Assembly (NCBI GenBank): GCA_030694985.1
Contig: JAUYTV010000020.1
Location: 62,001 to 126,000 of the forward strand
Reading direction: 5' to 3'
DNA: 64,000 nucleotides
Source: Methanoregula sp.
Lineage (GTDB): Archaea; Halobacteriota; Methanomicrobia; Methanomicrobiales; Methanospirillaceae
In this document: piece after piece, positions 3,741 to 33,442 of the stretch
Numbering within the stretch: the stretch's first letter is position 1
How the letters are laid out: every line of letters begins with the position of its first letter
Notes under the pieces: generated by a model
Databases searched by the model: none
What the model was told of the DNA's origin: nothing
The model's input: only the letters and a program-made list of their open reading frames with translations
Program-made: the position numbers and the translations under genes

Positions 3741-4612
3741 ATGACGAGAGCTTTGAAAAATACGTAGAAGCCGGTGCCATCGCTTCAAGGATTCTCCGGG
3801 AGGGCGCACGGGGCATCAGGATAGGAGAATCCTATTTCGATCTCGTAGAGAGCATCGAATCGCGGGTCTTAGAAGAAGGTGTTTCCTTAGCGTTTCCTCT
3901 CAATCTCTCCTTAAACGAGGATGCGGCCCATGACACCGCTTCCCCAGCAGATACACGAATATTTGAGAGAGGGGATGTGGCAAAACTTGATCTCGGCGTC
4001 CACATTGACGGGTATATCGCAGACACGGCAACCACTGTTGATCTGGGCAGTAACTCGCTGCTCCTTGCAGCATCAGAACAGGCGCTCGAAGCGGCGATAC
4101 GAAAGGTCCGGCCGGGCGCAACTAGTGGCGAACTCGGCGCCGCAGTCCAGAACGAGATCGAGAGCCGGGGCTACCGCCCGATCGCAAACCTGACCGGCCA
4201 CGGGCTTGACCGGTATGTTCTTCACCGCGCACCCACGATTCCCAATGTCGGCATCAACGGCGGAATGGTTCTCGAAGAAGGAATGGTCTTTGCAATCGAG
4301 CCGTTTTCAACTACAGGTAGCGGCCATGTGGGGGAGAAATCCCGGATGGAGATCTATTCTCAGATCTCACAAAAACCTGTGCGTATCCCGGCAGCGCGTG
4401 CCATCCTTGAAACGGTTAAAGATCGTCACGGGCTCCCGTTTTCGCGCCGCTGGCTTAAGGAACGGAAACAAGACATTGTACTCCCCGCACTGGTCAGATC
4501 CCAAACGCTTCATGTCTACCCGGTTCTCTCAGATATCCCCGGTTCACTCGTATCCCAGCACGAGCATACGGTCATTGTGACTGCTGATGGCTGCGTCGTC
4601 ACAACACGATGA
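3737..4612 (+). CDS. map: Methionine aminopeptidase, type II (archaeal)
   Basis: 291 residues. It removes the initiator methionine from nascent proteins. Metal-binding residues are seen in DLGVHIDGYIADTATT, TGHGLDRY, FAIEPFST and near the end in HEHTVIV. An inserted helical segment between the third and fourth ligand groups (about residues 205-265) marks the type II form used by archaea and eukaryotes. The ATGA overlap with the upstream M24B peptidase indicates translational coupling. Confidence 0.93.
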   Translation: MNDESFEKYVEAGAIASRILREGARGIRIGESYFDLVESIESRVLEEGVSLAFPLNLSLNEDAAHDTASPADTRIFERGDVAKLDLGVHIDGYIADTATTVDLGSNSLLLAASEQALEAAIRKVRPGATSGELGAAVQNEIESRGYRPIANLTGHGLDRYVLHRAPTIPNVGINGGMVLEEGMVFAIEPFSTTGSGHVGEKSRMEIYSQISQKPVRIPAARAILETVKDRHGLPFSRRWLKERKQDIVLPALVRSQTLHVYPVLSDIPGSLVSQHEHTVIVTADGCVVTTR

Positions 4613-11661: not shown

Positions 11662-12636
11662 ATGAACGTGAACATGAGTGCAATGCGTACCGTAATTATA
11701 ATATTCCTGCTTGCATGTATGGCAGTACCTGTTACGGCATCCGTATATTACACATCCAGCACCCACCAGATCATCACCAAAGGCGATACGTTCACAGTAA
11801 GCAGCACCGGTGCAAAGAATGGCCCGGTTGCCATCTGGATCATGGGAAGAGATTATTTTGATACCCTGTCAGTCACCCCGGACAGGAACGGGAATTTCTC
11901 GGTTGCCTTAAAACCCACAACAACAGAAAAATTCTCAAGCGGCCAGTATGCCATTGTAATTCAGGATCCCGGCCCAAATGGCCGGATGGAGATTGAACCC
12001 GGAACGGACGGCAGCGGAAATCTCACCATCATGAACCGCGGAAAAATAATTGAAAAGATCGGTGCCCGCAAGGATCTCAAAGGAAATGTCCAGCCGCTAG
12101 TTGCAGTCCTTTTAGATGCTGCAAACCTGCAGGGGGTTGATGACTCGTTCCTGCCAGAATATTTCTTTGTAGAAGAACCATCCTTGCAGTTCGATCAGAT
12201 GAACTCCATCTCCAAATCCCAGCTCCCCAACCAGATCACCGGCGAACCACTCATCATTTCCGGCACAACCAACATGGGACCGGAAAATTCCCTCCGGACC
12301 CACATCTACAACCGGGATACCAACGGACTTGTCATATCAAATACTATTCCCATTACCAGATGCTTCCAGATAAACCGCTGGTCTTATCAGATCGAAGCTC
12401 CCGGACTGCCACAAGGGAATTATTACCTGACTGTCGGGTGGGCGAAATCGAACACTACCAGCAGAGGGATGGCAAACTTCGATGTGGTAAAACCAGTCAT
12501 CCCCATACCACCTCCACCGGAAAGCCGTGGTATAGAAAAAGTCGTTCCGCATGAAGACTTCCCTACCTTCCTGTTCCTCACCATCAGCGGGGTGCTCATC
12601 ATCATCCTGATCATCTTTGCTGTCGGGAAAAAATGA
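11662..12636 (+). CDS. Exported, membrane-anchored surface protein, DUF3821-like
   Basis: 324 residues. A signal peptide (TVIIIFLLACMAVPVTA) precedes a beta-rich extracellular part beginning YYTSSTHQIITKGDTFTVS, typical of DUF3821 proteins abundant in Methanomicrobiales. A proline linker (PIPPPPES) then leads to one C-terminal membrane helix (FLFLTISGVLIIILIIFAVG) and a KK tail inside. The role is presumably structural or adhesive. The start is uncertain: ATG 11662, 11674 and 11683 all keep the signal peptide. TGTATATC near 11614 could be its TATA box. Confidence 0.6.
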   Translation: MNVNMSAMRTVIIIFLLACMAVPVTASVYYTSSTHQIITKGDTFTVSSTGAKNGPVAIWIMGRDYFDTLSVTPDRNGNFSVALKPTTTEKFSSGQYAIVIQDPGPNGRMEIEPGTDGSGNLTIMNRGKIIEKIGARKDLKGNVQPLVAVLLDAANLQGVDDSFLPEYFFVEEPSLQFDQMNSISKSQLPNQITGEPLIISGTTNMGPENSLRTHIYNRDTNGLVISNTIPITRCFQINRWSYQIEAPGLPQGNYYLTVGWAKSNTTSRGMANFDVVKPVIPIPPPPESRGIEKVVPHEDFPTFLFLTISGVLIIILIIFAVGKK

Positions 12637-18871: not shown

Positions 18872-19522
18872 ATGTCATCACCAGTGCGCACCGTACTGCT
18901 GGTATGTATGCTCGTTGCGGCTCTTATTTTCGCTGCAGGGTGTACCCAGCAATCGGCATCACCAGTCAAGACCGAATCGGGAACCGGGAACATACCAGTA
19001 ACACCCGTAATAACAGTGGCTGCTGCCACATCCCCTGCAACTGCCACAGTTTCTTTGGAGTCCTGGAAACGAGTACGGCTTTCAACTAATATGGGAGACA
19101 TCGTTATCGCGCTCGATCCCGCTATGCCCATAACTGCGGGAAATTTCGAGACGCTCGTGAACAAAGGGTTCTACAACAACCTAACCTTCCAACGCGTCAT
19201 CGATGGATTCATGCTACAGGGTGGCGATCCGACCGGCACCGGTCGTGGCGGCCCGGGGTACACGATCAAGGACGAATTTTCCACCAGTAACCGGAACAAC
19301 CGGGGGACCATTTCAATGGCTAATGCCGGCCCCAACACTGGCGGGTCGCAGTTCTTTATCAACCTTGTAAACAACAATTACCTTGATACCAAGCACCCGG
19401 TCTTTGGCAAAGTGGTTGAAGGTATGGATGTTGTCGATAAGATCGGGAAAGTCCCAACTTCTGGCGGACAGGAAAACCGTCCGCTCCAGACCGTTATTAT
19501 CATCAAGGCAGAGATGATCTAA
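18872..19522 (+). CDS. Exported lipoprotein cyclophilin (peptidyl-prolyl isomerase)
   Basis: 216 residues. A signal with lipobox (MLVAALIFAAGC) anchors the protein outside, followed by a short Thr/Ser linker and a full cyclophilin domain (about 60-216). Catalytic motifs are NLTFQRVIDGFMLQGGDPTG and NTGGSQFFINLVN. It would catalyse cis-trans isomerisation of proline bonds in exported proteins, fitting the Pro-rich surface proteins encoded just upstream. The next gene is a cytosolic copy of the same domain. Confidence 0.9.
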   Translation: MSSPVRTVLLVCMLVAALIFAAGCTQQSASPVKTESGTGNIPVTPVITVAAATSPATATVSLESWKRVRLSTNMGDIVIALDPAMPITAGNFETLVNKGFYNNLTFQRVIDGFMLQGGDPTGTGRGGPGYTIKDEFSTSNRNNRGTISMANAGPNTGGSQFFINLVNNNYLDTKHPVFGKVVEGMDVVDKIGKVPTSGGQENRPLQTVIIIKAEMI

Positions 19523-19603: not shown

Positions 19604-20071
19604 ATGACAGCACAAGCAGGAAATACCGTGCGGCTCGAGACGAACATGGGTAATATCACCATAGCACTCGATCCCACTATGCCCGTCACTGCGGGCAACT
19701 TTGAATCGCTCGTGAAAAAAGGCTTCTATGACGGCGTAATTTTCCACAGGGTCATCAACGGGTTCATGTTGCAGGGCGGCGATCCGACCGGCACCGGCAT
19801 GGGCGATCCCGGGTACATGATCAAGGACGAGTTCGGACCGCAAAACCGGAACAACCGCGGGACGATTTCGATGGCAAATGCCGGTCCTAATACCGGGGGC
19901 TCCCAGTTCTTCATCAACCTTGTTAACAACAACTTCCTTGACAGCAAGCACCCGGTCTTTGGAAAAGTGGTTGAAGGTATGGACGTTGTCGATAAGATCG
20001 GCAAAGTAAAGACCGGTGCGGGCGATCGCCCGGTCCAGAACGTGACGATCATCCGTGCAGTGATGGTCTGA
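19604..20071 (+). CDS. Cytosolic cyclophilin-type peptidyl-prolyl isomerase
   Basis: 155 residues, essentially one cyclophilin domain without signal peptide. Catalytic motifs VIFHRVINGFMLQGGDPTG and NTGGSQFFINLV match the exported neighbour almost word for word, and the DNA is also similar, so the pair looks like a fairly recent duplication. This copy would help fold cytoplasmic proteins. A T8 run follows at 20079-20086. Confidence 0.92.
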   Translation: MTAQAGNTVRLETNMGNITIALDPTMPVTAGNFESLVKKGFYDGVIFHRVINGFMLQGGDPTGTGMGDPGYMIKDEFGPQNRNNRGTISMANAGPNTGGSQFFINLVNNNFLDSKHPVFGKVVEGMDVVDKIGKVKTGAGDRPVQNVTIIRAVMV

Positions 20072-20086: not shown

Positions 20087-20375
20087 CGGGCAGTGGGTAT
20101 TTTTACTTTTACTGGGCTCATGCCGGGATGACCACAAAAATGGCCGGTGTGTTTGCGGTTTTCCGTTTGGGATCATACAGTTGGACAGGGTAGATCGCGT
20201 TCGCGTTCATAAGGTGCTGCGTTCTTTGTTCCTACCTAAGCTAAAGATGCTTGCGTTCGAAAATTCAAAAAAAAAATTCAGATGAGATGAAAAAGAGCAG
20301 ATACCTTTACAGCTCCAGCATAGAGAAATATAAAAATCGGCCAGACTGGGATACCGTTTACCAACTCCCCGGATC

Positions 20376-20713
20376 TGCACCAGATTTTTCCCGGTGGGTG
20401 CAGATCGGGTTAAGATGCGGGTTAAGCAAATTCCCGCCCGGTGCTGATATTTTTTGATTATCTCCAAAAATTTTCGTTTTTCAAATAACTGCACCCATTG
20501 CACCCGGATCGCAGGAGCACACAATATCCTGCACACACAGCAGTATGTAATGAAGATCCACTCATGCTTTCTGATTTCCGGGTGCAGATAGTACCCATAG
20601 TACTACTATCTTCAATATTCAAAGCAGGATTATCGTTTGCGTTCATTTCCACATCTTTTGATCTTAACCCGTACCTGCACCCAATCAGCACCCGACCTGC
20701 ACCCGCGGGTGCA
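20376..20713. repeat. Tandem unit copy A with WGCACC/GGTGCW sites
   Basis: Sites of WGCACC or its complement lie at 20376, 20397(-), 20490, 20499, 20581(-), 20676, 20687, 20698 and 20708(-). Framework blocks between them include CCAGATTTTTC (20380), GTGGG (20394), CCCATT (20494), CCCAATC (20680), CCCGACC (20691) and CCCGCGGG (20702). The same framework recurs in copy B 440-441 bp downstream. The last four sites form a compact array at 10-11 bp spacing. Confidence 0.8.
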
Positions 20714-20873
20714 GCACCATCAGACAATTCAGGATCAACTTTCAAACTCTGTGACAAAAGAGAAAGACCGGGCAACTTGACTACACCGCTTTGGGTCACA
20801 GAATTATTTTTTAAAATTGCCAGAATTTTCTTTGTGGGCAAAGGTTGGGCAAAGGTCATGGCAATTCTGAACT

Positions 20874-20896
20874 GCGCGTTGCATCGCGCGTTTTTT
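20874..20896 (+). terminator. Hairpin followed by T6 inside copy B
   Basis: GCGCG (20874-20878) and CGCGC (20885-20889) form a 5-bp stem around a 6-base loop and are followed by G and six T. This resembles a factor-independent terminator on the plus strand. Copy A has no equivalent. Confidence 0.35.
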
Positions 20897-20976
20897 ATTC
20901 CGGGCAATTTCATGCGTTTTTGGATCATCGTTGCCCATTTTGCCAGAACAGTAAGTGAGCAATTGAATATGATCAC

Positions 20977-21009
20977 ACGTAAAAGTACCCGTACTTAGTG
21001 GTCTTACGT
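20977..21009. repeat. Nested inverted repeat inside copy B
   Basis: Inner arms AAGTAC (20983-20988) and GTACTT (20991-20996) are separated by CC. Outer arms ACGTAA (20977-20982) and TTACGT (21004-21009) enclose them, with a 7-base asymmetric bulge. It could be an RNA hairpin or a protein site. Confidence 0.45.
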
Positions 21010-21366
21010 TTTTATAATCTGGGCAAAGGTGGTACTTGTATTACTCTTATTCTAAGTATCTGAACCCGGATTGGAAGAAAAAACCCCAAAATCATTTTCC
21101 GAGAATTGCCAATTGCTTTGCCCAATCATTGCCCGACCATTGCCCATGGGCAAAGGTGCCGGCCCGGAATCACACCGCTCTGGTGCAATGGAGATTTCCC
21201 CGCATTTAATGGGGGTGGTGATGATGAGGTGATTCTTCCGGCGCTTAACCCGATCATGTTATCCTCATCGGTCGTTACTGTCTCCACAACATAAAGCATG
21301 GGGCACTTCAAAGCCCCCGCTGGATTGAACACAATTTAAAAAAAATGGGAAACTGGGGGTAAAAAA

Positions 21367-33380: not shown

Positions 33381-33388
33381 TTTTTTTT
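33381..33388 (+). terminator. Oligo-T terminator after sepS
   Basis: T8 starts five bases after the sepS stop codon and leads into the 18-bp tandem repeat. Confidence 0.5.
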
Positions 33389-33442
33389 ATCCGATCCTGT
33401 ATTTTTATCAGATCCTGTATTTTTATCAGATCCTGTATGAGG
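33389..33442. repeat. Three tandem 18-bp repeats
   Basis: The unit ATCAGATCCTGTATTTTT occurs at 33389 (one change), 33407 and 33425 (last four bases changed). Each unit adds a T5 run, so it may strengthen termination between the convergent sepS and helicase genes. Too short and regular for CRISPR. Confidence 0.85.

Follow-up and report, generated by a model that had tools for sequence, protein, structure and literature searches.

Relics of two initiator genes with gene-specific words in a Methanoregula genome, and a putative family of archaeal iteron origins

The locus consists of two segments in tandem, copy A and copy B (Table 1), lying within the window, i.e. the whole 64,000-nt stretch of Methanoregula sp. 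DNA that was analysed. They are adjoined by two tandem peptidyl-prolyl isomerase genes (window 18872-19522 and 19604-20071; cyclophilin type by reading). Elsewhere in the window (33384-33438), an 18-bp unit, TTTTTATCAGATCCTGTA, is present in three tandem copies. Each segment carries its own short word in high density. Counted on both strands, copy A (20370-20725) contains 11 GCACC cores and no TTGCC, and copy B (20810-21165) contains 13 TTGCC cores and a single GCACC. Across the full 64 kb, copies A and B are the densest 356-bp intervals for GCACC and TTGCC, respectively.

A preliminary description of this DNA had reported tandem 440-bp units in which a recognition word was switched at nine paired sites. 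All nine pairs lie at the positions given there, and the constant offset of 440-441 bp is recovered in the best ungapped A/B diagonals, at 440 and 441. Both copies harbor further sites, two in copy A and four in copy B (marked in Table 1), so that the nine represent the subset common to both. The comparison with shuffled sequence, named there as a check, gave a divided result: the global A/B alignment scores -39, far above all of 200 dinucleotide shuffles (mean -90.6 +/- 8.8, best -60; z of about +5.8), whereas the local alignment (21 vs. 20.3 expected by chance) shows no excess. The relation between the copies thus resides in scattered framework blocks. Since TRF calls no tandem repeat at this location, the "tandem units" hold only in part: A and B are two diverged homologous gene segments in tandem, not a simple tandem repeat. 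The region was also considered as an RNA element; this was rejected, with no Rfam match here at the gathering threshold.

Table 1. Features of the two copies (positions in the window)
Feature	Positions	Strand	Remark
Copy A	20376..20713	-	remnant of rep word-bearing linker (by homology); word TGCACCCA, core GCACC, both strands
Copy B	20816..21154	-	remnant of second rep gene's word-bearing linker; word TTTGCCCA, core TTGCC, both strands
Rep C-terminal fragment of B gene	20725..20815	-	reads QSGVVKLPGLSLLSQSLKVDPEL; tblastn of G010 Rep
Rep remnant upstream of B words	21100..21310	-	two frames, KCPMLYVVETVTTDED and following; tblastn frames -2, -3
AT-rich stretch, copy A	20588..20632		place homologous to that of copy B stretch
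AT-rich stretch, copy B	21033..21063		TCAGATACTTAGAATAAGAGTAATACAAGTA on gene strand; putative unwinding element position, by AT peak in 41 homologues
Copy A core GCACC	20377..20381	+	
Copy A core GCACC	20397..20401	-	
Copy A core GCACC	20440..20444	-	outside the nine
Copy A core GCACC	20491..20495	+	
Copy A core GCACC	20500..20504	+	
Copy A core GCACC	20581..20585	-	
Copy A core GCACC	20677..20681	+	
Copy A core GCACC	20688..20692	+	
Copy A core GCACC	20699..20703	+	
Copy A core GCACC	20708..20712	-	
Copy A core GCACC	20714..20718	+	outside the nine
Copy B core TTGCC	20817..20821	+	
Copy B core TTGCC	20837..20841	-	
Copy B core TTGCC	20848..20852	-	extra
Copy B core TTGCC	20860..20864	-	extra
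Copy B core TTGCC	20903..20907	-	extra
Copy B core TTGCC	20931..20935	+	
Copy B core TTGCC	20940..20944	+	
Copy B core TTGCC	21022..21026	-	
Copy B core TTGCC	21106..21110	+	extra
Copy B core TTGCC	21118..21122	+	
Copy B core TTGCC	21129..21133	+	
Copy B core TTGCC	21140..21144	+	
Copy B core TTGCC	21149..21153	-	

The origin of the segments was revealed by their homologues. A DNA search with the 861-bp unit against 40 relatives yielded one true homologue, in the MAG of another Methanoregula sp. (G010). There, the counterpart of B belongs to the 3' portion of a long open frame that runs on the opposite strand. Copy B is 75% identical at the DNA level, over 452 bp, to L002:1501-1952, inside an intact rep gene. 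A tblastn search of the window with the Rep protein of G010 (P0002) gives a match of E 1e-18 at 20725-21310 on the minus strand, in broken frames, which identifies copy B as a pseudogene remnant of a rep gene. From the remnant upstream of its words, the recognition helix of the winged-helix domain has been lost. The C-terminal piece of the B gene stops at 20725, before the zinc finger, and copy A is joined directly after it. Copy A shows a layout matching that of copy B and a short matching peptide in frame, 'SKDVEMNANDNPALNIEDSSTMGT' in ORF 20458-20976(-), which resembles 'SKTNPEGSSSNPGSDTENNSSTGT' of the L022 Rep. The abutting of the two segments, together with layout and peptide, indicates that A and B are the linkers of two related rep genes joined by deletion. 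Most of the coding sequence of copy A is gone, and its assignment rests on the alignment to B and the short peptide resemblance; judged from sequence alone, rep identity is thus established for B, and for A by homology. Few DNA homologues were found because words and linkers diverge fast, and a protein search was productive instead.

Related remnants were encountered at other places. In the genome of the window, L056 1349-2480 (G000:C34) is a Rep C-terminal remnant with the word TTTGCAGCA. It starts about 80 bp 3' of a degenerate tRNA, which at 27.7 bits narrowly misses the Rfam threshold, an arrangement reminiscent of an old integration site. Downstream of the intact rep of L063, at a distance of about 1.8 kb (approximately 11759-12046, rep orientation), a second Rep zinc-finger-like fragment is found, possibly another tandem relic. 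A further locus of the window's genome (L053; G000:C12, about 42.5 kb) encodes a primase half 68% identical to P0002 but joined to another helicase that reads like a phage/plasmid-type (P4/D5) enzyme. Just after this primase-helicase, at 4085-4200, a stretch of about 110 bp holds four copies of GTGACGCAA/TTGCGTCAC (core TGACGCA); this other Rep type may have its words downstream of the gene, not inside it.

Rep is a protein of about 1000 amino acids in the order primase, helicase, winged helix, linker, and C-terminal zinc finger, with the domain names, the winged helix excepted, assigned by reading. P0002 shows a primase-like N-terminus, cysteine motifs (CPF..CHHASC), and a P-loop region (GDSGKGKS), followed by the winged helix, the linker, and a CxxC..CxxC finger at the C-terminus. 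The known families are of little help. Pfam gives no match above cut-off for P0001 (the C-terminal 709 aa) or two full-length members, NCBIfam none for P0002 and one member, and the PDB sequence search none; PHROGs returns a single weak match, in the primase part. Residues 16-340 match proteins of many viral contigs as well as a phage gene with a DNA polymerase annotation, and the assignment as an archaeo-eukaryotic primase (AEP) is by reading.

In the protein search, Rep homologues were detected in 144 of 232 genomes of the order, many of which contain several copies, and near-full-length matches (primase and C-terminal part, high identity) in a phylum-wide sample of 393 genomes fall in the same order; many of the genomes surveyed are draft MAGs. 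A tyrosine integrase is encoded 1.9-6.7 kb upstream of rep in 17 of 80 loci, with a tRNA gene directly upstream of the integrase in six (L068, L076, L080, L094, L126, L133), neighbors that point to integrated elements. Orc1/Cdc6 homologues lie near rep in 18 of the 80 loci. Matches in plasmid and phage collections are confined to the primase part, and a search of 72,556 plasmid records found no circular plasmid with this Rep. With the viral contigs matched first, Rep has only the primase domain in common, and a search with the helicase adds three distant viral homologues. Two of these, on the IMG/VR viral contigs L218 and L220, correspond to the helicase/winged-helix part with about 34% identity and carry differing repeated words (GGTATCAGT; CTATCACA) in the gene's 3' part, so that the embedded origin may have a greater age and spread; L218 also encodes a terminase-like protein (by reading).

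The intact genes contain words as well. In 97 of 107 rep genes, a gene-specific word of 8-9 bp is found just after the winged-helix codons, scoring above all 30 dinucleotide shuffles made per gene (z up to 27); the remaining ten show no clear word. The search took the best 9-mer on both strands, with up to two mismatches, from the winged-helix end onward. The words, about 10-12 copies per gene (median 11), occupy the open frame between winged helix and zinc finger. As each word is the best of many candidates, the shuffles and the words of other families served as controls. The own core reaches 13.65/kb in the 480-bp linker vs. 0.66 in the rest of the gene, 0.71 in the flanks, and 0.63 at the rep start, an approximately 20-fold enrichment, and a linker contains on average 6.6 own cores and 0.37 cores of other families. 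About 25 distinct word cores are known; the words have a loose frame yTTxCxxCA in common, e.g. TTTACAGCA, TTTTCAGCA, TTTGCAGCA, TTTGCAACA, and TGACAGCA, or TGGCAGCA, CCTTCAGCA, ACTTCCGCA, TTTGCACC, and TTTGCCCA. The expectation of the preliminary description that copies with a third word would exist beside Rep or primase genes was thereby met.

The sites follow a common order over about 330 bp: four forward sites and a reverse one, then, set off by a gap on either side, a single forward site, and finally a reverse site and a mixed cluster. When the maps are superposed, the preferred positions are 55>, 65>, 75>, 85>, 100<, 185>, 260<, 335>, and 350-370. This layout is common to genes with different words, as in 19% of 1381 pairs at least 70% of the sites coincide (random 0.1%). 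The likeness between families is partly due to common descent, with the words replaced in place. Across 41 aligned maps, a peak of AT content, 30 points higher than in the gene, lies just before site 185; the AT-rich stretch is frequently AATAATAATA with GTACA/TGTAC blocks. Dyads of the type GTACA...TGTAC or TAGTAC...GTACTA recur in this stretch, immediately 5' of the middle forward site, in many rep linkers, A and B included. They are a second conserved origin feature that none of the readings offered here explains.

Words and protein change together. The Rep tree was built from residues 15-690 only, i.e. outside the winged helix, and word and residue changes were mapped onto its branches. 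Word position 4 changes with residue 719 (13 shared branches, p 1.6e-7), position 6 with residue 723 (p 6.6e-5), and position 7 with residue 730 (12 of 13 changes shared, p 3.4e-14), each partner ranking first of 733 columns. In this run, two registers were hand-set and a few doubtful genes dropped; without these edits (59 genes at z of at least 8, columns upstream of the words only), columns 719, 723, and 730 again rank first, with p 4.1e-5, 4.0e-6, and 7.6e-7. The p-values presume independent branches and are guides only. For word position 2, no clear single helix-residue partner remained after phylogeny was handled, and L049, with mixed A/G at position 4, deviates from the rule for that position. 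A plain mutual-information ranking without tree had been tried and was replaced by the co-change test, as phylogeny dominated word positions 1 and 2.

AlphaFold predicts the domain as a winged helix (mean pLDDT 75) with a third helix at 718-726 and a strand pair at 728-735, so that residues 719, 723, and 730 fall in the predicted recognition helix and the following wing. The model of the helicase part is poor (mean pLDDT 42.5), and the winged helix alone is usable. Its fold matches in the PDB are nearly all winged helices, albeit weak (none with E of 0.001 or below). Close pairs display the same covariation at small scale. L047 and L051, 92% identical over residues 15-690, differ in the recognition helix (SYQQTY to SYHQTY) and in the word (TTTCAGCA to TTGCAGCA, T to G at position 4); in L031 and L061, 88% identical, SYLSIY to SYMGIY goes along with a T to A change in the word. 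That the winged helix binds the words is inferred from this covariation. To this extent there is support for the suggestion of the preliminary description, an element recognized by a factor with different specificities in the two copies. Its guess of iterons of two related replicons gains support from the homologue of B within the 3' part of a primase-helicase gene, with origin activity remaining an inference.

Other explanations of the words have to be weighed against this evidence. A linker that appears disordered and encodes weakly conserved protein could contain words merely as a side effect of codon bias or short repeated peptides, with A and B differing by drift, and counting of top 7-mers indeed produced 20 codon-type false positives in 5' control windows, the reason for adopting a strand and frame test. 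In the 85 best-marked genes, however, 50% of the sites lie on the plus strand, and in 83 of them four to six of the six strand/frame combinations are used, a mix which codon bias cannot produce and which already refutes this account. Neither would it accommodate the enrichment of one gene-specific word or the covariation with residues coded outside the linker; it is scarcely tenable. The preliminary description would have been overturned by a decayed protein gene explained by codons: the region is a decayed protein gene, but codons fail to explain the words.

Winged helices are often part of repressors. The words might accordingly be operators through which the winged helix represses its own gene or controls copy number, with the origin elsewhere, and the closest PDB folds are MarR/ArsR-type regulators (none significant). 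Yet the words reside at the 3' end of the gene while the rep start is at background, primase and helicase domains belong to the same protein, and an AT-rich stretch separates two site clusters, which leaves operators an unlikely choice. The latter two features also speak against partition (centromere-like) or packaging sites for the same winged helix, a very improbable option; AspA of pNOB8, an archaeal plasmid winged-helix centromere binder, is among the weak fold matches, but no ParA-like partner was noted beside the rep genes in a search that was not systematic. Covariation is no direct proof of contact, and another element-coded protein co-inherited with Rep could bind the words. This is considered improbable, since the top co-changing columns of more than 730 land exactly in the recognition helix and wing.

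An origin inside its initiator gene has a precedent. In lambda, the iterons of the origin and the AT-rich segment next to them lie inside the initiator gene O, whose product binds the origin (PMC4488673), and this is the nearest model by function. Lambda differs in having four 19-bp repeats and in O recruiting a separate helicase, whereas Rep, encoded by archaeal elements, fuses primase and helicase, ends in a zinc finger, and has about 11 words, each 8-9 bp long, in either orientation. Searches of Pfam and NCBIfam found no sequence relation of Rep to the lambda O family, nor did PHROGs, with its one weak primase match. By protein plan, the nearest system is ORF904 of pRN1, which combines an archaeo-eukaryotic primase, a helicase, and a winged helix and presumably binds close to the gene that encodes it (PMC4234260). 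The pRN1 origin is, in contrast to words inside rep, a 100-nt stem-loop downstream of the gene, and its authors were unable to find iterons (PMC4234260); moreover, the Rep helicase matches no Pfam family.

In geminiviruses, type-specific short iterons vary among close relatives, and the iteron-related protein domain was identified via sequence comparison, as far as the work is reported in a later article (Arguello-Astorga and Ruiz-Medrano 2001, cited in PMC12548392). The rep family is alike in both respects, but geminiviruses are eukaryotic ssDNA viruses with a rolling-circle Rep and few iterons, upstream of the gene. Integrated elements of Thaumarchaeota also encode primase-helicase fusions (PrimPol modules), there with a superfamily 3 helicase, and no description of origins with covarying iterons was found in that report (PMC6563490).

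The reading we favor, with a probability of about 0.82 and without binding or replication data, places an iteron origin within the initiator gene, where the initiator's own winged helix reads it, and takes A and B as relics of two such replicons. The linker codons would double as replication origin, with about 10-12 words in a fixed two-sided layout around the AT-rich stretch. The winged helix, whose codons immediately precede the words, would bind them and assemble the initiator; the AT-rich stretch would then open, and helicase and primase would load, steps inferred from lambda O and pRN1. When specificity changes in a lineage, helix residues and every word copy would change together. A and B would stem from two integrated replicon types, later truncated and joined, and their words may differ because these types had different specificities. 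As reader and sites are placed on one DNA stretch, a replicon exchanged by recombination would, in our interpretation, keep a matched pair. It is also probable, though held with less confidence, that these genes constitute an undescribed and widespread archaeal replicon family, with the origin directly after the reader-domain codons and at least 25 word types that arose as the winged helix and about 10 sites changed in concert. The Rep/origin family is unannotated in archaea as far as the open-access literature goes, an absence that is no proof of novelty.

How an initiator and a dozen scattered sites switch specificity jointly without loss of function is an open question of replicon evolution. 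The family offers more than 60 non-redundant gene/origin pairs with many specificities on one scaffold, some differing by one helix residue and one base, which makes the code directly testable. Native replicons and vectors are, to our knowledge, few for this methanogen order, and the linkers provide candidate origins for its members, with the word as a marker for sorting replicons. Incompatibility between word types is inferred; if the reading is true, the family would provide, for a single winged-helix scaffold, a naturally evolved recognition code, and with it a likely basis of replicon compatibility.
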